Shown here: piece by piece, positions 19,532-60,163 of the stretch
How the letters are laid out: each line of letters starts with the position of its first letter
How positions within the stretch are numbered: position 1 is the stretch's first letter
Assembly: GCA_016787225.1 (NCBI GenBank)
Contig: JAEUUY010000006.1
Coordinates: 62,001-126,000, forward strand
DNA length: 64,000 nucleotides
Direction: 5' to 3'
DNA from: Chitinophagales bacterium
GTDB taxonomy: Bacteria > Bacteroidota > Bacteroidia > Chitinophagales > JADJOU01
Made by a program: the position numbers and the translations under genes
Notes under the pieces: model-generated
What the model saw: the letters and a program-made list of their open reading frames with translations, nothing else
What the model was told of the DNA's origin: nothing
The model's database searches: none

Positions 19532-21352
19532 ATGAAATCCTACCTCACCCTTCTTCGTCATATTCTCCCGCACAAAAAGCTAGTAGGACTTTTCGCAGTA
19601 TTTAGTGTCCTCACGGTGATTTTTTCGCTGGTGAGTTTAGTGATGTTGGTACCATTTTTAGAATTACTTTTTGATAAAACACCGCTCATTCTCGAACAAC
19701 CGAAATTTAGTTTTTCCAAAAGCTATTTCATTGATTCGTTTTATTATTTTCTATCCCTACAGATACAGCAGAAAGGAAAAATAGCTGCACTCGGTTTCTT
19801 TTGTATTGTGGTTTGTATTATATTTCTCCTTAAAAACCTCTTTCGCTACCTAGCCCTTTATGTATTAGCGCCTTTGCGAAACCATATGATATATGACTTG
19901 AGAGACCGCATGTATCAGCGTCTCATTCGCCTGCCTATTTCCTTTTTTCAGAAAAATAATAAAGGAGATATTATTACCAAATTTACTTCGGACTTGTCCG
20001 AAATTGAATATAGTATTATCAATACCTTGGAGACGTCTATTCAGTCGCCTCTCAATATTATTCTATTTCTAGCAGCTATGCTCACGATGAGTGCCAAGCT
20101 CACCTTATTTGTTTTTGGCATGATTCTCGTCATGGCTCTCATTATTGGCAGAATAGGGAAAAGCTTGAAGAAAGAAAGCAGTGAAGGCAAGGAAGTAACT
20201 GGTAGACTTACTTCTATTTTGGATGAAAGTATTTATGGTATCAAAATCATTCAGGCGTTTTTTGTTCAGAGTTGGATTTATGAAAAATTTAAACTGGAAA
20301 ATAAAAACTACTTCGAGACTTATAGTCGAATGTATCGCAAACGAGATTTGTCTTCACCCCTGACAGAATTTTTAGCTATTGTCGTAGTTTGTCTCGTTTT
20401 ATGGTTTGGTGGACAAATTGTATTAAGTAATCAGGAATTGAATGCCGATGGATTGACTGCTTCTACCTTTATAGCCTTTATGGTCGTCTTTTCTCAACTC
20501 ATACCACCAGCCAAGAGTTTTTCATCGGCTGTTTATGAAATAAAAAAAGGGATGGCATCCTATGAACGAATTCAAACCATCCTATCAGAAAATACAATTA
20601 ATTTTAATGAGGAAGGACTGAAAAAAACAAAGTTCGAATCTGCCTTAAGATTAGAGAATATTTCTTTTCAATACGAAAATTCTGAGTTGAATTCTCTAAA
20701 CAATATCTGTTTTCAATTTGATAAAGGAAAAAAATATGCTCTCGTGGGTCAGAGTGGTGCAGGCAAAAGTACCCTTCTAGATTTAATATTGGGTTTTTAT
20801 CAACCTACAAAAGGCATGATAAAAATTGACGACGAAAATATTCAAAATATTGCCTTAGAGTCTTATCGTTCGCTATTCGGATTAGTAACGCAAGAGGCTC
20901 TCCTTTTTAATGATACTATTGATAATAATTTATCTTTTGGTCAATCACAACCTAGTGCTATAAAACAAGCTTTAGAAATAGGAAATGCAAGCGAATTTGC
21001 CAAACGGATATCTAACAATAATATAGGAGAGCGCGGCAGCGTTCTCAGCGGTGGAGAAAAGCAGCGACTGACCATAGCTAGAGTAGCTTTCCGTAATCCA
21101 GAAATAGTTTTGCTAGACGAAGCCACCTCTGCACTCGATAGTCAGAACGAAGCGGAGGTGCAGAAAGCCTTAGATATTTTATTAGAAAATAAAACGAGCA
21201 TCATTATTGCTCATCGATTGAGTACGGTGAAAAATGCAGACTGTATTATTCTGATGGATGAAGGCGAAATCATCGCTACAGGCACACATGAATCCCTTTA
21301 TACTGAAAATGCGAAGTACAAAAATATGGTGGACTTACAGAGTTTGGGGTAA
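19532..21352 (+). CDS. ABC transporter, fused permease and ATPase (MsbA-like)
   Basis: The 606-residue half-transporter has an N-terminal membrane domain with about six helices (residues 15-320) and a C-terminal ATPase. Walker A is GQSGAGKST, the signature is LSGGEKQR, Walker B is IVLLDEAT, and the switch His is in IIAHRLS. This matches type I exporters of the MsbA/lipid or multidrug class. The likely substrate is lipid A or another lipid, but homology to multidrug exporters is equally good. It lies directly after the GxxExxY relic and shortly before an L,D-transpeptidase gene. Confidence 0.88.
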   Translation: MKSYLTLLRHILPHKKLVGLFAVFSVLTVIFSLVSLVMLVPFLELLFDKTPLILEQPKFSFSKSYFIDSFYYFLSLQIQQKGKIAALGFFCIVVCIIFLLKNLFRYLALYVLAPLRNHMIYDLRDRMYQRLIRLPISFFQKNNKGDIITKFTSDLSEIEYSIINTLETSIQSPLNIILFLAAMLTMSAKLTLFVFGMILVMALIIGRIGKSLKKESSEGKEVTGRLTSILDESIYGIKIIQAFFVQSWIYEKFKLENKNYFETYSRMYRKRDLSSPLTEFLAIVVVCLVLWFGGQIVLSNQELNADGLTASTFIAFMVVFSQLIPPAKSFSSAVYEIKKGMASYERIQTILSENTINFNEEGLKKTKFESALRLENISFQYENSELNSLNNICFQFDKGKKYALVGQSGAGKSTLLDLILGFYQPTKGMIKIDDENIQNIALESYRSLFGLVTQEALLFNDTIDNNLSFGQSQPSAIKQALEIGNASEFAKRISNNNIGERGSVLSGGEKQRLTIARVAFRNPEIVLLDEATSALDSQNEAEVQKALDILLENKTSIIIAHRLSTVKNADCIILMDEGEIIATGTHESLYTENAKYKNMVDLQSLG

Positions 21353-21356
21353 GAAT

Positions 21357-21983
21357 ATGAATTACAAAATTGCAACTTTAGTTGTAGCAGTCTTATTTTT
21401 TTTTGGCTTGTTATATTTCGATTCACGATATAATTTCTCAGACTATACCTCTATATACAATGACCTTCATTTAAAGACAAAACTCAACCTCTCCATTTTT
21501 GAAAAAGCCTTGGAAGGCAAAAGAAAACATTGCAAATACACCCGCTACATTTCCATTATAGATTTTAGAGAACCTTCTACCAGTAAGCGATTCTATCTTA
21601 TCGATTTACAGAAACGAAAGTTATTATATCAAACTTATGTAGCTCATGGAAAAAATTCCGGAGAAAACTTTGCTACTAAATTTTCCAATAAAGAAGACTC
21701 TCATATGTCTAGTCTCGGTTTCTATAAAACAGGCGAAACATACTATGGCAAACATGGATATTCTCTAAGACTGCATGGACTAGAAGAAGGAATCAATGAT
21801 AATGCATATAAACGTGCTATCGTCTTACATGGCGCAGACTATGTGAGTGAAGATTTTATCAATCAACATGGAAGACTAGGTAGAAGTCATGGTTGCCCAG
21901 CCTTACCTGTAGATTTAGCCAAAGAAATTATTGACAAAATAAAAGGAGGCAGCTGCCTATATATTTATCAAGATAATTATTAA
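21357..21983 (+). CDS. Murein L,D-transpeptidase catalytic-domain protein
   Basis: Read from the ATG at 21357, four bases after the ABC gene, the protein is 208 residues with an N-terminal membrane anchor or signal (about residues 4-20). The C-terminal half carries HGKNSGENFATKFSN, LRLHGLE, VLHGADY and the active-site motif GRSHGCPAL with the catalytic Cys, as in PF13645-type L,D-transpeptidase-like proteins that act on peptidoglycan stem peptides in the periplasm. Longer in-frame starts inside the ABC gene were rejected because they precede the hydrophobic segment with unrelated sequence. The end overlaps the convergent gene by 4 bases. Confidence 0.85.
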   Translation: MNYKIATLVVAVLFFFGLLYFDSRYNFSDYTSIYNDLHLKTKLNLSIFEKALEGKRKHCKYTRYISIIDFREPSTSKRFYLIDLQKRKLLYQTYVAHGKNSGENFATKFSNKEDSHMSSLGFYKTGETYYGKHGYSLRLHGLEEGINDNAYKRAIVLHGADYVSEDFINQHGRLGRSHGCPALPVDLAKEIIDKIKGGSCLYIYQDNY

Positions 21984-36908: not shown

Positions 36909-38018
36909 CTATTTCCTTTGTACTTGAAACATCTTATACCCGTCTTCTTTACTCTTAATTTTTCTAATAAAATCTTGCTTATTATCGAAGCATCTGGAAA
37001 GATTTTGGACTTTATCAGTATAATCATCCGCTAATTTACCTTCAGCTTCATATTGAAAATAATAAACATAGATTTTAACACACTCATTTCTATTCAATAT
37101 TTCTCTTAACAAGCCCCTATCTGAAAGTCCACATGAATGTCCTAGTATATGAACATCAAAAGGATTATTCAATTTATCTGTAAGTTTTTCATAATTGTCT
37201 GTTTGACAATAATCGAAAAGTTTAATGTTCTTTAGTTTCTTATTATCATCTAAAGATTCTAATTTTTTGTAATCCTCACTCTCATAGTCTCCATAGCCAA
37301 AAATTATTTTGTTCCTTGGGTCATTCAACTGTCCATGAATATTTATTACTTGAAAATCATTTGGAATATAGTGAGTATATGTATTAGTATAATTGAAATT
37401 TAATATAAGATTATTTCCATCAGGATATTTTCTAAAATTTAGAAAATAATCTTTGTATTGAGGTATGAATTGTAATGGATTTAATTGAATTAGGTATTCT
37501 TCAAATTTGTTCTGCAAAACTTCAAAATCTTGATTTAACTTTTCAGTATTAGGTTCGCTAATCAATAACCTGAAATATAATCTTTCAATATCTACCCAGT
37601 TTTTGTTTTTGTGATATTCATTAATAATATTATTAAACATAATATTTTTTTCATACTGATAATGAAATTTATATGGCGGTTGTCCAGTTTTACTTTTAAT
37701 TTTTTGCATTACTCCAAGGTCTGCTTGGTGTTTAGAGTAAAAATCTTCATATCCAGAAATGGATTTAAGTCTTAAGAATATTTCCTTAAAAACTTTATCA
37801 TCTTCGAAATAGCCTTTAACATAGCTATCGCTGTCTTTTATACGGTAGTTAAGAAATGGATTATCAATTTCAAATTCAATAAGATTACTTTCAAAATGTT
37901 TATTAGCAACTTGCAAAAAGTAGGATTTATAAACCCAATCGATAAAATGTTTATAGCCAGAATCTAATCCATGAGACAAATCAAAACCGTTTCCAATAAT
38001 AAAAATGTTGTTATTCAT
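36909..38018 (-). CDS. AbiH-family phage abortive infection protein
   Basis: Read from the ATG at 38018, the protein is 369 residues and begins MNNNIFIIGNGFDLSHGLDS, followed by GYKHFIDW. This is the diagnostic nucleotide-binding-like N-terminus of the bacteriophage abortive infection AbiH family. The C-terminal part has the NFNYTNTY, INIHGQL and ILGHSCGLSDRG segments typical of the family. AbiH was first described on a lactococcal plasmid; its mechanism is unresolved. The start overlaps the 3' end of the type IIG-like gene by 8 bases, so the two are translationally coupled. An in-frame codon 42 bases upstream adds 14 residues without family character. Confidence 0.88.
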   Translation of the reverse strand: MNNNIFIIGNGFDLSHGLDSGYKHFIDWVYKSYFLQVANKHFESNLIEFEIDNPFLNYRIKDSDSYVKGYFEDDKVFKEIFLRLKSISGYEDFYSKHQADLGVMQKIKSKTGQPPYKFHYQYEKNIMFNNIINEYHKNKNWVDIERLYFRLLISEPNTEKLNQDFEVLQNKFEEYLIQLNPLQFIPQYKDYFLNFRKYPDGNNLILNFNYTNTYTHYIPNDFQVINIHGQLNDPRNKIIFGYGDYESEDYKKLESLDDNKKLKNIKLFDYCQTDNYEKLTDKLNNPFDVHILGHSCGLSDRGLLREILNRNECVKIYVYYFQYEAEGKLADDYTDKVQNLSRCFDNKQDFIRKIKSKEDGYKMFQVQRK

Positions 38019-41000
38019 AAGTATACGATTTATTTTCAATGACGGCGATTTCCTCCTCACTCAGCCCATATAGCTCATAGACTAGCTTATCTATCTCTGC
38101 CTCCAACTCACTAGTATCTGCGTCTGGATTGGATTTTTTGAGAGAGAGGATTTTATCGACACAAGTATTTATATTTTGATTTATTTTTTTACAAATAGGA
38201 ACTTTGGATAGTAATTGAGTATTTAAACTAATATATCCACCTGCTAAATGTTTATCTTTAAACTTAATTTTAAAATACCAATCTATTAATTTTGAATTTA
38301 AAATTGCGAGAACTGATTTTAGTATTTCAATTTCTCCTAGAATACTATAAACACTAACTGCTGGTGCTAGAATGCCTTCAATATCCAATGTAGCCTCTAT
38401 ATTTTTTGTCATACCAGCTACCAATATTTTAGGTGAAGAAAACAATTCCCATTTTCCTTCAGATATTACTTCTTTATTATATGTAATAAATGGCTCTATA
38501 TAATCTGTTCCTTTATATCTAGTTTTATTATTTAATATTACATATCTATCAATACTCCCTGTTACAATGACTCTCTTATCTGAAGCAGTTTTTCTTCCTT
38601 CTGAAATACAATTTCCATAATTAGTAAATTGAAATCCATTTATACCAGGTGAGTATGTTAGAGAGTCATTTAGGCTTGCTATATTCTCAACTTTATGAAA
38701 AATTAAATCTTCAGTAGTACTATTTTCTTCTGATTTTACATATTGCATTTTAATAAAATCCCAGTCATTAATATAGTTAATTTTTAGACTGTTATCTATT
38801 AACTGAACATTCTGCTTTATACATATACTTGACTTTCTTTCATTATTTGAAAGGTTAATTATAATAGGATAAACAGAGGCTTCTTCAAAAACATTTATAT
38901 TAGAAATATCAATAAAACTATCAAATGATTTACTAGAACTTAAAAAATTTAAAAGCGAATTTGAGTATGAGGCGATTAGAAATTTATTTGGAATAATATA
39001 ATTTAAATTACAGTCTTTTTTAAGCAATTCAAATCCTTTCTCAATAAATAAAATGTATATGTCATAATTGCCAGATTTAGCAGAAATAAATTTACTATTA
39101 AAGTATTTTATATCCTTTTCCATATCCCTTTTATACATATCTTTTGTAGATATATACGGCGGATTCCCTATCACCACATCAAACCCAATAAATCCACCAT
39201 TCTCATCAAGCACTTCTGGAAATTCAAATCTCCATTCAAAAGCATTCTGATAGATAGGATTGGATTCTATGTCTTTTTTCTCTTGTGTCAGTTTTTCAAG
39301 TTTGGCTTCATAGTCTTTGACCTTTGCTTTTTCTATATCTGTGAGAGGAAACATGGGGTTTTTGGATTTCAGAATTTCCATAGTTACCTTATCTATTTCA
39401 TTCTGTACCTTATCTGTTCTCTTATCTCTCAGTTTAAATTCAGATTTGAATTGGTCTATTTTTTTGACTAATTGTGCTTTGGCTGATTTATCTCTTTCTC
39501 CTTTATATACCTGTACCCAAGTGGTATATTCTTTCAGCCTCGTTTGGAAATTAGGTATATTCTCAAATACACTATCCTTGACTTCAAATCTACTTATCAA
39601 GCTATTGCCACATTTGATATTGATATCAATATTTGGCAAAGTTTCTAAATACTTATATTTGCTAGATTCCGTATAGTAGGCATTTTTAAGCAATTCTATC
39701 CAGAGTCTCAGTCTGCATATCATCACCGATTTAGGATTGATATCTACTCCGAATAGGCAGTTTTCTATAATCGTTTGTTTCTCGTGAAAGAGGGTTTCTT
39801 GTATTCTTCTACTTTCAGCATTTTTGGGATTGTATTCATAGAGTTTACCTTCTTCATCTTTGATTATGAGTTCATCATTTTCTATCTCCAGTTTATAGCC
39901 CTTGATTCTTTTGAAATCCTTGTCAGCCAGAATTTCTAAATCAGATTTGATAGCTATCATCTCATTGAGCGCCGATACCAAGAAGTGTCCAGAACCGACA
40001 GCAGGGTCACAGATATGAAGATTGTTTATTGTACTATTCGCTTCTTGGATTGAAATTTTGTCTAGTTTATTGTATAAGTCTTTGAAGTCATTACAGTTCC
40101 AATGATAAGATTCATTAAATTTCTGTATAACTGCTCTTCTAATACTTTCCCTGCACATATGCATCGTGATAAAACTCGGTGTATAGAATGAGCCATCTTT
40201 GTAGCCATTGATTTTTTCAAATATCAACCCTAATACAGAAGCATTGATAATCGTCTTGGATTCTTCCTTGATTTTTCCTTTGGATACATCTCCGAAGTCA
40301 TAGGCATTGAGAAACTCAAATAAGTATTCTAGCGTTCTTTTGCTACTGCCTTTGACTTGATCCCGATAGCCATCGGGACGTAAAACGGTCTTGTCGTAAC
40401 TAGGCAAATCCAGTCTATCTTTCAATACATTGATTCCAAAGTATTTTTTCTCTAACTCCGTTTTCTCAAATAGCGAACTATTGAGATAAGGGATATTGCC
40501 AAATTGTTCATTCACAGATTTAGACCTATCCTGATAGTTCTCTGCTAATACCTCAAAAAATAATTCTTCTAATTCATCGTAGTCCTTAATCTTGTCATAG
40601 CTTAAAAAAGCAAAATCCAGACTATGATTGTATTTAATAAGTTGCCCTTCTAGTAATTTGAGGAATAAAATTCGATTGAGCCAAGTAATACAAAGCTCTA
40701 GTGCTATAGAATACTGTTCCTCTGTATCAGATATATCTCTAAAATCTTTTTTGAGTTTATTGAGGGCATTTTCTAATAAACTTCCATCATTCGGCACCTT
40801 ACATCGCTGAATCGTTTTCTTGCTTCCTTCTTTGACTTCCTCTATTCCGACGATATGTAGTAGTTCTTTGTAGAATTTATCATTCAGAGAATTGCTATCA
40901 TTGGCGGTTTGTTTTTTGAGTAAATGCTCTGGACTGAGGATTTTGTATAAATCCAATAGAGCCTCATCATCTTCTAGGTTATTATTGAAAATGACTTGTT

Positions 41001-41637
41001 CATAGTCTTTAAGGTTGAAATAGGTACAAGATATGGATTCTAAATTTTGCTCTAAATGTGGATGGACCACTTCTTTATAAAACCAGTCTGTTTTATTGAA
41101 TCCTATATTGCCATCATTCCAACTTTTATAGCTATCACGAAGTTTTTTATTTTCAAAGAAATATCGCTCAAAATCACTCGCATCAAATATGTACCATTCA
41201 TAAATGTTGGTAATAATGAGGTGCTTGATTTCCTTATTCTCATTGATAAATCTTTCGTGAATATAATAGGATATGAGTTGCTGAAATGATTTGCTGTTGG
41301 GATTTTTAGCTGAAATCATCTCTGATTTATTGCTTGGTTGCTTAGTTTCTATTAAAACTCCTGCTGAACTTGTCAGTTCAGAGCCATTGTGTATGACTAG
41401 GTCTTTTCTTTCTTTAGTATTTATGGCATTTTTACCCTTATAATACGTATCTAGTAAAAAATCCCTTAAAATAACCTTTAAATGCTCCTCGCTTTCCTTT
41501 CTTTTCTCGCTTTCTAGTATATTGGTAAAGGTGGATTTGATATTAGACTTGAATAGCTCTATTTGCTCTCTTTTCAGATTCTGTTTCTGAATAGAGGCTT
41601 TGAGTTTCTGAGTAGGATTAAGAAATTCTAGTTTCAA
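38011..41637 (-). CDS. Type IIG-like restriction-modification enzyme (Eco57I-type)
   Basis: The 1208-residue protein combines nuclease, methyltransferase and specificity parts. N-terminal region: PD-(D/E)XK-like segment with LIETKQ near residue 96. Central region: SAM-dependent N6-adenine methyltransferase with motif I DPAVGSGHFL at about 543 and motif IV NPPY at about 823, the Eco57I domain. C-terminal region: TaqI-like recognition part, ending ELYGLSEEEIAVIE. It should both cut and methylate DNA with one polypeptide. The start is TTG. It is the first gene of a unit with abiH. A palindromic TCCCGATAGCCATCGGGA lies in frame at 40361-40378. Confidence 0.88.
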   Translation of the reverse strand: MKLEFLNPTQKLKASIQKQNLKREQIELFKSNIKSTFTNILESEKRKESEEHLKVILRDFLLDTYYKGKNAINTKERKDLVIHNGSELTSSAGVLIETKQPSNKSEMISAKNPNSKSFQQLISYYIHERFINENKEIKHLIITNIYEWYIFDASDFERYFFENKKLRDSYKSWNDGNIGFNKTDWFYKEVVHPHLEQNLESISCTYFNLKDYEQVIFNNNLEDDEALLDLYKILSPEHLLKKQTANDSNSLNDKFYKELLHIVGIEEVKEGSKKTIQRCKVPNDGSLLENALNKLKKDFRDISDTEEQYSIALELCITWLNRILFLKLLEGQLIKYNHSLDFAFLSYDKIKDYDELEELFFEVLAENYQDRSKSVNEQFGNIPYLNSSLFEKTELEKKYFGINVLKDRLDLPSYDKTVLRPDGYRDQVKGSSKRTLEYLFEFLNAYDFGDVSKGKIKEESKTIINASVLGLIFEKINGYKDGSFYTPSFITMHMCRESIRRAVIQKFNESYHWNCNDFKDLYNKLDKISIQEANSTINNLHICDPAVGSGHFLVSALNEMIAIKSDLEILADKDFKRIKGYKLEIENDELIIKDEEGKLYEYNPKNAESRRIQETLFHEKQTIIENCLFGVDINPKSVMICRLRLWIELLKNAYYTESSKYKYLETLPNIDINIKCGNSLISRFEVKDSVFENIPNFQTRLKEYTTWVQVYKGERDKSAKAQLVKKIDQFKSEFKLRDKRTDKVQNEIDKVTMEILKSKNPMFPLTDIEKAKVKDYEAKLEKLTQEKKDIESNPIYQNAFEWRFEFPEVLDENGGFIGFDVVIGNPPYISTKDMYKRDMEKDIKYFNSKFISAKSGNYDIYILFIEKGFELLKKDCNLNYIIPNKFLIASYSNSLLNFLSSSKSFDSFIDISNINVFEEASVYPIIINLSNNERKSSICIKQNVQLIDNSLKINYINDWDFIKMQYVKSEENSTTEDLIFHKVENIASLNDSLTYSPGINGFQFTNYGNCISEGRKTASDKRVIVTGSIDRYVILNNKTRYKGTDYIEPFITYNKEVISEGKWELFSSPKILVAGMTKNIEATLDIEGILAPAVSVYSILGEIEILKSVLAILNSKLIDWYFKIKFKDKHLAGGYISLNTQLLSKVPICKKINQNINTCVDKILSLKKSNPDADTSELEAEIDKLVYELYGLSEEEIAVIENKSYTYE
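40361..40378. repeat. Palindromic TCCCGAT...ATCGGGA inside the restriction-modification gene
   Basis: TCCCGATAGCCATCGGGA is an 18-base near-perfect palindrome. A close relative, TCCCGATAGCTATCGGGA, occurs in the MITE-like copy at 61272. Here it encodes RPDGYRD in frame, between VL and QVKGSSKRTLEYL. Confidence 0.6.
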
Positions 41638-41740
41638 GACGCATCGAATTTTAGTTAAAAAAGGATTTCAACTGTGTGTAAATATAATGAAAAAGAATTA
41701 TTGGTATTGGCGCACTTCCAAATCGCCCTAAAATATATTA

Positions 41741-55183: not shown

Positions 55184-56359
55184 ATGATACTACTTAGGGC
55201 TTATGCCACCATTTGGGATTTTGTAAACCACCATTTCGGAACCAATATTACATCTATGCCACCAAACACCTATGGTTTTATGATGGCGATGGCTTTCATT
55301 GTCGGTATTTACTTAGCTAGAAATGAGTTGGCTAGAAAAACTAAACTTGGCATTTTCCCAAAAGCGGGAAAAGAGATAATCGTTGGTCAAGGTATAAATT
55401 TTACAGATGTAATTCTCCATGGACTATTAGGTTTTTTTGTAGGCTTAAAACTAGTCGGAGCGCTTCAGAATTTTTTTGCTATCTCTCAAAATGTTCAAGA
55501 ATACATTTTATCCTTGCAAGGCTCCATGTCTGGGGGATTGCTCTTCGCATTTCTATTTGGTGGTTTTACGGCCTATAATCAATGGAAATCAAAAAAAGAT
55601 ATACCTGAGAAAAAGACCATCTCTAACAATATAGAAGACCGTATCGGAGATGTGCTTATCATTGCTATGATAGGAGGCGTGGTAGGGTCGAAATTGCTCG
55701 ATGCTATTGACAACCCCTCTTCTATGTCTGATTTTATGGCGAATCCCATAGCTTCTCTAACATCTGGCCTTAGTATTCTAGGCGGATTATTTACAGTGTC
55801 TATACTATTAATTCTTTATGCTTTAAAAAACAAAATAAAGGTTTTACCATTTATAGATAGTCTTTCGCCTCCCTTCTTTCTTTCTTATGCCATCGGCCGA
55901 TTAGGCTGCCAGTTTTCAGGTGACGGTTGCTGGGGAATCCCTACCACAGGTCTGACCAAACCAGCTTTTCTTCCAGATTTTTTATGGGGAAACACTTATG
56001 ATCATAATGTGAATAGAGATGGGATTCTTATTCCTGGTTGTGATGAAACTTTTTGTATGAAACTCGCGGAACCACATCTGCCTACGCCACTCTATGAAAC
56101 CATCTTTGTTAGTTTATTATTTCTTATTTTATGGAGTTTAAGAAAGCGATTAACATTTAACCCTGGGGCTATTACCGGTCTCTTTCTGGTATTTAATGGA
56201 ATAGAAAGATTTCTTATCGAGTTTGTTAGAATCAACAATAAATACAACTACTTTGGTTTTGAACTCTCCCAAGCTCAGTATATGTCCATCATTATGATAC
56301 TTATCGGCGCAGGGCTTACTATCTGGGCTATGAGGAAGAAACCTTTATCGCTGATTTAA
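55184..56359 (+). CDS. lgt: Prolipoprotein diacylglyceryl transferase-like protein
   Basis: Lgt adds diacylglycerol to the lipobox Cys of prelipoproteins in the inner membrane. The 391-residue protein has about seven membrane helices and the core motif AIGRLGCQFSGDGCWGIP, similar to the Lgt GRxGNFxNGExxG signature, plus a C-terminal GIERFLIEFVRINNKY holding the essential Arg. It is about 100 residues longer than the E. coli enzyme, mainly in loops. The segment that in E. coli contains the HGG motif reads MSGGLLFAF here, so that His is missing. Assignment is firm at family level; the substitution is an inference from memory of E. coli Lgt. Confidence 0.85.
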   Translation: MILLRAYATIWDFVNHHFGTNITSMPPNTYGFMMAMAFIVGIYLARNELARKTKLGIFPKAGKEIIVGQGINFTDVILHGLLGFFVGLKLVGALQNFFAISQNVQEYILSLQGSMSGGLLFAFLFGGFTAYNQWKSKKDIPEKKTISNNIEDRIGDVLIIAMIGGVVGSKLLDAIDNPSSMSDFMANPIASLTSGLSILGGLFTVSILLILYALKNKIKVLPFIDSLSPPFFLSYAIGRLGCQFSGDGCWGIPTTGLTKPAFLPDFLWGNTYDHNVNRDGILIPGCDETFCMKLAEPHLPTPLYETIFVSLLFLILWSLRKRLTFNPGAITGLFLVFNGIERFLIEFVRINNKYNYFGFELSQAQYMSIIMILIGAGLTIWAMRKKPLSLI

Positions 56360-56423
56360 AATAAAAAAGTATAATTTAACCATTCAATTCTATTAATCAT
56401 TTATATAAACTCATAATTTATTA

Positions 56424-57524
56424 ATGAATAAATTATCTCCAAAGTCTTATATATTACCATTAATTGTAATAACTTTTTCAGTTTTACTCTACAGCTTTAT
56501 CTCACAAAAAATCTGCAACCTTTCTATAATTACAGTTGATTCTAGCTTCAAATATGGGTATTGTCTTTTAATATTTACAATACTCTATATTTTTGCAGTA
56601 TACCTTAGAGTCCGCTACATTCCATCTATAAAACTAGGATATTTTCTAATTGTTATAAGCATTATTTATATCTATTATAGGTTTTGTATCAATGACAATA
56701 TTTATCTTAAACTCCCCAATACTCCTTTTTATTTTGAAGATGTAATATTATTCATTAGTATTCTATACTTTATTCTTTACATCTGTAGAAGTAAATACAC
56801 CTCATCTAATTGGAAAAAATACAATATTGATAAAAATGATTTTGATGACAGTGAGTTAGATTTTCTAAAAATTAAAAAGCTAATTGAAAAGGATTTTATC
56901 GACTATAAAGGTGAAAATTCATTTACCATTTGTTTAAATGGACCTTATGGTATAGGAAAAACAACCTTGCTAAAATCTATTTATAAAGTTGTTAAGGAGA
57001 ACAATGAGGTAATCACATGCTGGTTTGCTCCTTGGCTATATAAAGATAAAGATTTATTAACAAATGGATTTTTAAATTTGATTGAAGATAAGTTAAGTGA
57101 ATACTCAGGAAATATTACCAACCAAATAGATCAGTTAACAGCTTCGATTTTAAAATTGGGGGATAATTCATTACTAGATTTAATCGCAGATAAAATTAAT
57201 ACTAACTCTAATGCATATGAATTACAGGAAGAAATTGTTGAAAGTATTAAAGCGATAGATAAAACTACATTTGTGTTTATCGACGATATGGATAGACTTG
57301 AAAAGGAAGAAGTTTTAATGGTTTTAAAAATTCTTAGAACAATTTCGCATTTCCCCAATTTTGTATTCATTATTGGAATGGACTATAAAAAGGTAAAGGA
57401 TAAGATTGATGAAGATAGTGTCTATTTAGATAAATTTATAAACCTAATTTACCGACTGCCAAATAGAGATAGCAATGATTTAGCTAAATATTTTTTGAAT
57501 ACATATAGAAATGGAATTAACTGA
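56424..57524 (+). CDS. Membrane-anchored KAP-family P-loop NTPase, N-terminal part
   Basis: The 366-residue product has four hydrophobic segments in residues 8-122. A KAP NTPase core follows: Walker A GPYGIGKTT at 173-181, the CWFAPWLYKDKDLL motif, Walker B VFIDDMDRLEKEE at about 284-296, and IIGMDYKKVKDKI with a basic finger. It stops at DLAKYFLNTYRNGIN, where KAP proteins normally continue into a helical lid. The next frame begins 14 bases before this stop, in another frame, and supplies that lid. KAP NTPases are membrane-associated and often mobile; defence roles are suspected. The gene is very AT-rich, unlike its neighbours. Confidence 0.8.
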   Translation: MNKLSPKSYILPLIVITFSVLLYSFISQKICNLSIITVDSSFKYGYCLLIFTILYIFAVYLRVRYIPSIKLGYFLIVISIIYIYYRFCINDNIYLKLPNTPFYFEDVILFISILYFILYICRSKYTSSNWKKYNIDKNDFDDSELDFLKIKKLIEKDFIDYKGENSFTICLNGPYGIGKTTLLKSIYKVVKENNEVITCWFAPWLYKDKDLLTNGFLNLIEDKLSEYSGNITNQIDQLTASILKLGDNSLLDLIADKINTNSNAYELQEEIVESIKAIDKTTFVFIDDMDRLEKEEVLMVLKILRTISHFPNFVFIIGMDYKKVKDKIDEDSVYLDKFINLIYRLPNRDSNDLAKYFLNTYRNGIN

Positions 57525-59217
57525 AAATCAAATTTTATTTCCCTTATCGCATCCCATTAAGAAACAGTTAGATCTTTCTATTGCTGAAAAATTGGATGCC
57601 GAAATCAGCTATAATGATTCAGTTAAAATAGCTGACTTTTTTACAAACAAGAGAGAAGTAGATCATTTTATAAATTCCTTTAAGTTCTCACTAAAATTAA
57701 TGAATAATGAGAATAAAAATCATTATTTCAATATACAATGTTATTATGTATATAAATTATTAACATATAAATTTGATTGGATTGATTCATACCTGAGTAT
57801 ACTTTATGACCAAGGTCTACTACCTTTTAGCACAAATCTAGACCCAAAGGAGAATTCGCCTAAGCCCGAAAGCCTAATGACTCAACTATTAACCGAAGAT
57901 CAAGAAACAAATTTAAAAGACTTCTTAAATAAAAATAATATAAAAATCGACGACATTGATTTTAAGATATGCATTGATTGTCTAATTTTCCTATTTAAAA
58001 GTATACATAAATTTGGGTTTTCAGATGGGGCAATGTATCGAATGTATTATAATGACAATGTATTAGGGGATATCAGTTATTCATCCTTAATAGAATTCAT
58101 TTATGCTCAAATAGAAAGAAATGAAGCTATTAATTTTATGCACTTTTTCGAAAATTTTGAGGAGAAGCATTTCATAGAGAATAAAAAATACTATTATGGA
58201 ACAACTAATCTAAAAATTTTAAATGAGTTAGTTAACTTTTGCTTTGATTTTACTTCTATTCCAGATAAATACTACATGAGCTTTTTAAATGGTTTAAATG
58301 AACTTAAAAAAGAATACTCCTCCGTTCCTTTTGAAAACAACCTTAATCAAAAACTTATAATCTCATGTATAAACTTTTATAAGTTAAACAATAGCTTAAA
58401 ACAATATTTAGATTTATATAGCTTTATTTGTAATAACATTTCACCTGACTTGAACTTTAAAAAGGATAAAGAAACATATTTAGAGTGTATTCAGTTTTTA
58501 AATTTAGGATTAAATTCAAGTTTTGATAGTATAAAAAATAGGTTAGTTGATGATGAATTTAATGTTTTCCATAAGATTTTATCGGATTATAATCGAAAAG
58601 AGCGAACAACAACACTTGATTTAGATAATAATAAAATTGAAGAAATTATAGTAGAGATTATAGAAAATGGGAATATGAAATTAAGAGATAAATATTCCCT
58701 AATATTTAATACTACTAATTTAATAAATTCTGAGGGTATTACTAACTACTACTTACCTCCAAAAATTCAAGAAATAGCAAAATCCTTTATTATAAATAAT
58801 ATTAATGAACTTCTAAGCAATCTAAATCCAAATGATGAGTTAATTTATATTGAAGATAATGATAAATATATATCAGATTTATTTCTGTTTAAAATTCTTA
58901 AAAAGAGAGATTTATTCTCTTTTGAAATCACGGATCATACAGAGTTGTTGGTTTCAAGTGATATAGGAAAACTTCATAAACCAGAGAGAAGTTATAAACT
59001 ATATAAAGATTACTTAGACTTTTTAATTTTACTTGAACCAAATATTAGCATGGAAAATAAAAGAAGATTTGATTACATAAAAAAAATTATAGTCGATGAA
59101 ATTGCATTTAATCAAGGGAAAGAAAAATTTGAAACAAAATATTATTTAATTAATGATTTTAATAAATTAAGAAAAGATTCTGGATTATTTGAGTTTGTAT
59201 CTCTTGCTACAAATTAA
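57511..59217 (+). CDS. KAP NTPase C-terminal part or coupled partner
   Basis: The 568-residue frame starts at an ATG 14 bases before the stop of the preceding KAP gene. Its first 80 residues contain FFTNKREVDHFINSFKFSL, which matches the KAP lid region (typically ...REVKRFLNSF...). This suggests the two frames were or are one protein of roughly 930 residues. The remainder is helical, AT-rich and unrecognised. Either a +1-type shift within 57499-57521 joins them, a mutation split one gene, or two proteins are made by coupled translation; the sequence alone does not decide. In the second frame the nearest upstream stop is at 57496. Confidence 0.6.
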   Translation: MELTENQILFPLSHPIKKQLDLSIAEKLDAEISYNDSVKIADFFTNKREVDHFINSFKFSLKLMNNENKNHYFNIQCYYVYKLLTYKFDWIDSYLSILYDQGLLPFSTNLDPKENSPKPESLMTQLLTEDQETNLKDFLNKNNIKIDDIDFKICIDCLIFLFKSIHKFGFSDGAMYRMYYNDNVLGDISYSSLIEFIYAQIERNEAINFMHFFENFEEKHFIENKKYYYGTTNLKILNELVNFCFDFTSIPDKYYMSFLNGLNELKKEYSSVPFENNLNQKLIISCINFYKLNNSLKQYLDLYSFICNNISPDLNFKKDKETYLECIQFLNLGLNSSFDSIKNRLVDDEFNVFHKILSDYNRKERTTTLDLDNNKIEEIIVEIIENGNMKLRDKYSLIFNTTNLINSEGITNYYLPPKIQEIAKSFIINNINELLSNLNPNDELIYIEDNDKYISDLFLFKILKKRDLFSFEITDHTELLVSSDIGKLHKPERSYKLYKDYLDFLILLEPNISMENKRRFDYIKKIIVDEIAFNQGKEKFETKYYLINDFNKLRKDSGLFEFVSLATN

Positions 59218-59335
59218 TGTTTAGAATTTTACTCTTATCCTAAGCCTTTATTAACTGTTGTTAAATTTTAACCAAACAGCTGTAAACTTAACTATAAAGC
59301 CAACGTTAACTTACATTATTCCATATTTTTAACCC

Positions 59336-60163
59336 ATGTCTTTTAACCCACAAAAATATCTAGATCAATTTCAGGGAATCGTCGAAGTGCTTATACCGAA
59401 AGTTATAGGTGCTATACTAATATGGATGATTGGTTCTTTGCTAATAAAATGGGCTTACAGGGTCTTCAAAAAAATACTAGATGCTAAAGAATTCGACCCT
59501 TCTGTTGAAACTTTTTTTCTTTCTTTCATTCGTATAGGACTGCGCATCGTCCTATTTATCATTATTATAGGAGTTTTAGGAATTCAAACCACTTCTATCG
59601 CCGCTATGCTAGCAGGCTTTGGCGTGGCTATTGGTTCAGCTTTTAATGGCTCACTGGGAAATTTTGCAGGTGGTTTTATGATTATCATTTATCAACCAAT
59701 CAAAGTCGGGGAATTTATTGAATTTAATGGAGTCAGCGGGGTGGTGCAGGAAATTGGAATATTGAATACATGCATTTTAACTGGTGATATGAAGACAGTC
59801 TTTCTTCCCAATGGTATGCTATCTACAGGTATAATTATCAACTGGAGTCGCAATAGAAAGATAAGAGTAGATGTTCCATTTAATATTGAAGCTAACATAG
59901 ACATAGAACTCGCAAAGTCAATAATTATCGAAGCTTTAAAAGAACACAAGCTTATTTTAAAAAGTCCTAAACCAGAAGTTTATATTCAGCAGATACAATC
60001 TGGTTCTATCCAGCTTATTGTTAGACCTTATTGTTCACAGCCTGATTATTGGACGGTTTATAATGATACTCATAGTTTAGTGATTAATGCGTTTAAAGAA
60101 AAGAATATTTCGCAAGGTATCCCTAAGCAAATCTTAATAACTCAAACAAGTGGAAAGAACTAG
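59336..60163 (+). CDS. Small-conductance mechanosensitive channel (MscS family)
   Basis: The 275-residue protein has three membrane helices in its first 115 residues. The pore-lining third helix reads AAMLAGFGVAIGSAFNGSLGNFAGGFMI, and the cytoplasmic beta domain begins with IKVGEFIEFNGVSGVVQEIGILNT, the family signature. It opens on membrane tension to release solutes under osmotic downshock. Size matches E. coli MscS. The 3' end overlaps the EamA gene by 14 bases. Confidence 0.9.
   Translation: MSFNPQKYLDQFQGIVEVLIPKVIGAILIWMIGSLLIKWAYRVFKKILDAKEFDPSVETFFLSFIRIGLRIVLFIIIIGVLGIQTTSIAAMLAGFGVAIGSAFNGSLGNFAGGFMIIIYQPIKVGEFIEFNGVSGVVQEIGILNTCILTGDMKTVFLPNGMLSTGIIINWSRNRKIRVDVPFNIEANIDIELAKSIIIEALKEHKLILKSPKPEVYIQQIQSGSIQLIVRPYCSQPDYWTVYNDTHSLVINAFKEKNISQGIPKQILITQTSGKN

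Follow-up and report, generated by a model that had tools for sequence, protein, structure and literature searches.

A membrane KAP NTPase gene, probably broken by a single indel, in an AT-rich insertion of a Chitinophagales genome

The gene described here occupies positions 56424-59217 of a 64,000-nucleotide stretch of DNA from a Chitinophagales bacterium (contig JAEUUY010000006.1); this whole stretch is referred to as the window hereafter. The gene lies between lgt and mscS, is absent from that site in three congeners, and is read in two overlapping open reading frames (ORFs), ORF1 and ORF2, its frame being broken once, before the lid. The two halves together encode about 930 residues: N-terminal membrane helices, a P-loop core, a lid and a C-terminal helical region. 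The original prediction had offered three explanations for this structure, namely a coupled two-protein KAP system, a programmed frameshift and a decayed gene. The last is the one that the present results favour: one horizontally acquired membrane KAP NTPase gene of the full-length type was probably broken once by a recent insertion or deletion (indel), and most likely does not encode a two-protein system. The gene is of a known kind, its relatives are one-frame, and in this sense it is ordinary. Its features are as follows.

56424-57524, + strand: ORF1, 366 residues; N-terminal membrane segments and KAP P-loop core
56445-56783, + strand: four hydrophobic, probably transmembrane segments within ORF1 residues 8-120 (Kyte-Doolittle scan; AlphaFold2 helices)
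56940-56966, + strand: Walker A, GPYGIGKTT (read from the sequence)
57270-57299, + strand: Walker B, FVFIDDMDRL (read from the sequence)
57499-57521, + strand: interval bounding the frame change (three-frame reading and codon-usage scan)
57511-59217, + strand: ORF2, 568 residues (stop-free from 57499); carries the KAP lid and the helical C-terminal half
57652-57681, + strand: KAP lid motif, REVDHFINSF (homolog alignment)

Two frames of one protein

The first frame had been predicted to carry N-terminal membrane segments, Walker A and Walker B, with no lid, and this was confirmed by the hydrophobicity scan and by Pfam. The four hydrophobic segments of ORF1 span residues 8-26, 45-63, 71-89 and 102-120, and four helices are also seen in the AlphaFold2 model of its N-terminal region. 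ORF1 matches KAP_NTPase (PF07693) with an E-value of 4e-27 and 95.6 bits against a curated cut-off of 20, and the columns G176, G178 and K179 of Walker A and D287, D288, D290, R291 and L292 of Walker B are invariant among homologs. When the ORF1 model was compared with known structures, the P-loop proteins RdrA and Orc/Cdc6 were retrieved, the best at an E-value of 4e-7. The TM-scores by query do not exceed 0.40, and these matches of a predicted structure inform on the fold class only. No close relative of ORF1 was found when viral and genome collections were scanned with this single protein.

The DNA encodes the KAP-family lid, with its conserved arginine, immediately downstream of the core, though in the frame of ORF2. 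The assignment of REVDHFINSF as the lid, made in the original prediction, held when it was aligned to KAP homologs: the motif follows the pattern R-D-V-x-R-F-x-N-S, and its first arginine (R52) is invariant in 41 aligned sequences. The weak BLAST matches of ORF2 to KAP proteins also gather around the lid. By these sequence features the gene is classed as a member of the KAP P-loop NTPase family, and the product of ORF1 alone is predicted to be incomplete. Chance opening is excluded for both frames: at the base composition of ORF2, the probability is about 2e-16 for the 366 stop-free codons of ORF1 and about 4e-25 for the 568 of ORF2.

No family match was obtained for ORF2 in Pfam, PADLOC or NCBIfam, and among 99 related genomes, plasmids and phages ORF2 found only itself. 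The C-terminal halves of 74 homologs were combined into a profile, and significance was judged against 1000 shuffles of ORF2. With the composition correction off, ORF2 scored 87.9 bits, while the shuffles had a mean of 35.4, a standard deviation of 6.2 and a maximum of 68.6 bits; the best single domain scored 87.0 against 43.6 for the shuffles. The match forms one collinear domain, from 13 to 452 of the profile and from 20 to 528 of the extended ORF2. With the correction on, the score of ORF2 was −3.7 and the shuffle maximum was −23.2. The homology claim rests on the shuffle comparison because these corrected absolute scores are not significant, as was also the case for a whole-length homolog profile with composition correction. 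By the shuffle comparison, ORF2 is the collinear C-terminal half of the protein of ORF1. The AlphaFold2 model of ORF2 is mostly of low confidence (mean predicted local distance difference test score, 59.9), the first ~180 residues being better, and it had no match in the PDB with an E-value of 0.001 or less.

The coordinates, the 14-base overlap (57511-57524) and the different (+1) frame of ORF2 agreed exactly with the original prediction. The frame change is confined to 57499-57521, because a TGA of the ORF2 frame lies at 57496-57498 and a TGA of the ORF1 frame at 57522-57524; the interval reads ATACATATAGAAATGGAATTAAC. In the codon-usage scan, the coding signal moves from the frame of ORF1 to that of ORF2 at about 57497-57521. 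Neither a slippery site nor a repeat was seen within the interval, and no homopolymer there is longer than 3. A run of six T (T6) lies just upstream, at 57491-57496; as the site of the frame change it was ruled out by the TGA that directly follows it in the ORF2 frame. Phase variation by a repeat was also ruled out, since the permitted interval has none. The distance from core to lid is within the range of the homologs, and therefore no segment appears to have been lost between the halves. There is no further stop or shift in either half; a single break between otherwise intact halves suggests that the break is recent.

Homologs at the junction and rival explanations

A comparison of the junction with one-frame homologs had been proposed as a check in the original prediction. 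Homologs were collected from 395 genomes of the class, 396 genomes of the order, a collection of 84,980 species and viral contigs; non-redundant matches with an E-value of at most 1e-15 were counted, and the junction region was defined as 340-430 of the profile. It was found that 126 homologs span the junction in a single open frame; in 85 of these the match includes the membrane part too (median frame, 883 residues). A split at this junction occurs in none of the 126. Eight homologs do not span it. Contig ends truncate some of these, and others are partial, divergent matches; the second fragments of L003 and L053 account for two. Breaks do occur elsewhere, near profile 607-630 in L003 (1402-4020) and L053 (4857-7500) and near profile 95 in L116, and such scattering of the break positions is the pattern expected of sporadic decay. 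That the breaks of L003 and L053 share a region may be coincidental, or it may mark a second point at which splits recur. The decayed-gene option thus gains from three sides: the one-frame homologs, the identity of ORF2 as the homologous C-terminal half, and the junction at which nothing is apparently missing.

Could the break lie in the data and not in the organism? A base-calling or assembly error in an intact gene would account for the observation that all homologs are one-frame and that only one break exists here. Nevertheless, the other conserved genes of the window are one-frame when compared with the congener G001, and therefore indel errors seem to be infrequent in this region; moreover, the permitted interval has no homopolymer longer than 3, and the TGA at 57496-57498 would persist after a change in the upstream T6 run. 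We regard such an error as unlikely. A functional pair is considerably less probable. In that case, ORF1 (membrane segments and core) and ORF2 (lid and C-terminal region) would be translated separately by stop-start coupling and reassemble, and the outcome would be a membrane-anchored ATPase core with a separate lid and sensor, controlled in its nucleotide state by subunit assembly. The 14-base overlap with an ATG, the long stop-free frames in both halves and the position of the split on the boundary between core and lid are in its favour. However, no other genome was found to be split at the junction (0 of 126), the splits of other homologs lie at other positions, and neither recurrence nor a close relative was found.

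Programmed +1 ribosomal frameshifting, which would join the overlapping frames into a full-length protein, is highly improbable. The interval where the change must occur holds no slippery site, neither a long run nor an obvious re-pairing codon; the stop context is AAC TGA A, unlike the CTT TGA C of the prfB type; the T6 run is unusable with a TGA of the ORF2 frame right after it; and the homologs need no shift. Neither the two-protein nor the frameshifting explanation has positive evidence. Several points weigh against a single broken gene. The plausible ATG of ORF2 just before the stop of ORF1, both in predicted frames, would permit coupled translation. The closest homolog shows only ~33% identity over the core; no close homolog and no second strain were found, and an intact allele of the same gene was not seen. 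The function assigned to the KAP protein is by analogy. On balance, the broken gene is still the reading that we prefer, and the case shows a set of tests for broken-gene calls: one-frame homologs, an empty congener site and composition-matched shuffles.

The insertion site and a probable link to defence

The gene is the sole content of an insertion, delimited by comparison with congeners and by G+C content.

55184-56359: lgt, flank of the insertion
56398-59325 (edges approximate, ~2.9 kb): AT-rich insertion carrying the KAP gene
59336-60163: mscS, flank of the insertion

In three genomes of the same genus (G001, G002 and G003), lgt and mscS are adjacent, with a gap of ~40 bp or less and no KAP gene, as expected of the insertion that had been predicted. 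The stretch had also been called far more AT-rich than its flanks. Its G+C content is indeed 24-28%, and values elsewhere in the window are mostly 31-40%, but the gap is only roughly 8-10 percentage points and similar to that of another insertion at 36.9-41.7 kb. No target-site duplication, terminal inverted repeat or other repeat was found at the edges.

The whole window is collinear with contig 27 of G001. Among window frames of more than 150 codons, a counterpart in G001 is lacking only for the two KAP halves and for the pair in the second insertion. The KAP gene aside, a comparison with G001 showed no broken frame in the genes of the window. The second AT-rich insertion (36909-41667, minus strand), absent from the collinear G001 contig, consists of a type IIG restriction-methyltransferase gene (PADLOC, E 1e-252) that overlaps an AbiH gene (Pfam, E 6.5e-25). 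No other part of the 64 kb, the KAP gene excepted, is clearly accessory. A sharp step in identity to G001 is seen at the KAP insertion site (95% for mscS, 77% for lgt), both values being inside the spread of other genes. For the gene at 21255-21980, the G001 counterpart matches as two pieces in two frames (contig 27, 56238-56832), so that the copy of G001, not that of the window, looks broken.

The suspected defence context of KAP NTPases, noted in the original prediction, was supported by the homolog neighbourhoods. The order hsdM-KAP-hsdS-hsdR, that is, a type I restriction-modification (R-M) operon, was found in L043, L047, L085 and L107; L042 and L114 also have the KAP gene in such an operon, with extra genes or gaps. 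The position between hsdM and hsdS recurs across several Bacteroidota lineages, and a limited literature search found no description of it. In Mesonia, two genomes (L055, 3411-4787; L066, 3565-4896) carry a gene of the Schlafen/AlbA_2 and RecG-C-like type immediately upstream of KAP; an AlbA_2 gene is near the homolog in L179, and DUF4062 takes its place in L121. Further homologs adjoin other defence-type genes. KAP NTPases have been linked to phage exclusion and immunity (PMC3387028, PMC10853773). The intact gene was probably an anti-phage accessory gene, a role suggested by association, because it is drawn from these neighbourhoods and this literature. The recurrence of the subgroup with N-terminal membrane segments in Bacteroidota type I R-M operons offers a testable lead on function.

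We infer that horizontal transfer brought in the gene, as an accessory gene standing alone. Judged from its layout and from what is seen in Tmn, PifA and the homolog neighbourhoods, which serve as analogues, the intact protein may have sensed infection via its C-terminal part, undergone an ATP-dependent state change at the membrane, and blocked phage propagation or aborted it. The indel would leave a membrane-anchored core that lacks the lid and the C-terminal half, and therefore the system is most likely off here.

Comparison with known KAP systems

The KAP family P-loop NTPases were reportedly described by Aravind et al. in 2004. The present gene shares with the family (PF07693) the P-loop core, the Walker motifs, the lid, the membrane segments and the sporadic accessory distribution; it differs in that the frame is broken before the lid and that the membrane segments precede Walker A. 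The latter arrangement is general among its relatives: 2-5 membrane segments lie before Walker A in 60 of the 60 homologs examined, and a hydrophobic segment between Walker A and Walker B is found neither in these 60 nor in this gene. In this respect the gene and its homologs differ from Tmn, whose transmembrane segments are said to be inserted in the NTPase domain, although a KAP NTPase with transmembrane helices is common to both. Tmn is a defence system formed by a membrane KAP NTPase; it has "two unusual transmembrane domains" and inhibits T2, P1, phiVi and phiX (PMC11846954); no Tmn model was among the PADLOC matches. PifA, responsible for the F-plasmid exclusion of phage T7 (PADLOC PDLC02361), shares the KAP core (E 1.8e-26, PADLOC), but the match is limited to the core (best stretch, ORF1 258-360) and leaves ORF2 unmatched; the present protein further differs by its four N-terminal membrane segments and in its C-terminal half. 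The same layout is found in the one-frame Bacteroidota membrane KAPs, such as those of Maribacter polysiphoniae (L043) and Flavobacterium (L045, L046 and L049), which are about 850-1020 residues long and 26-33% identical in the core. These have one open frame, and several relatives are located in type I R-M operons, whereas the present copy stands alone.
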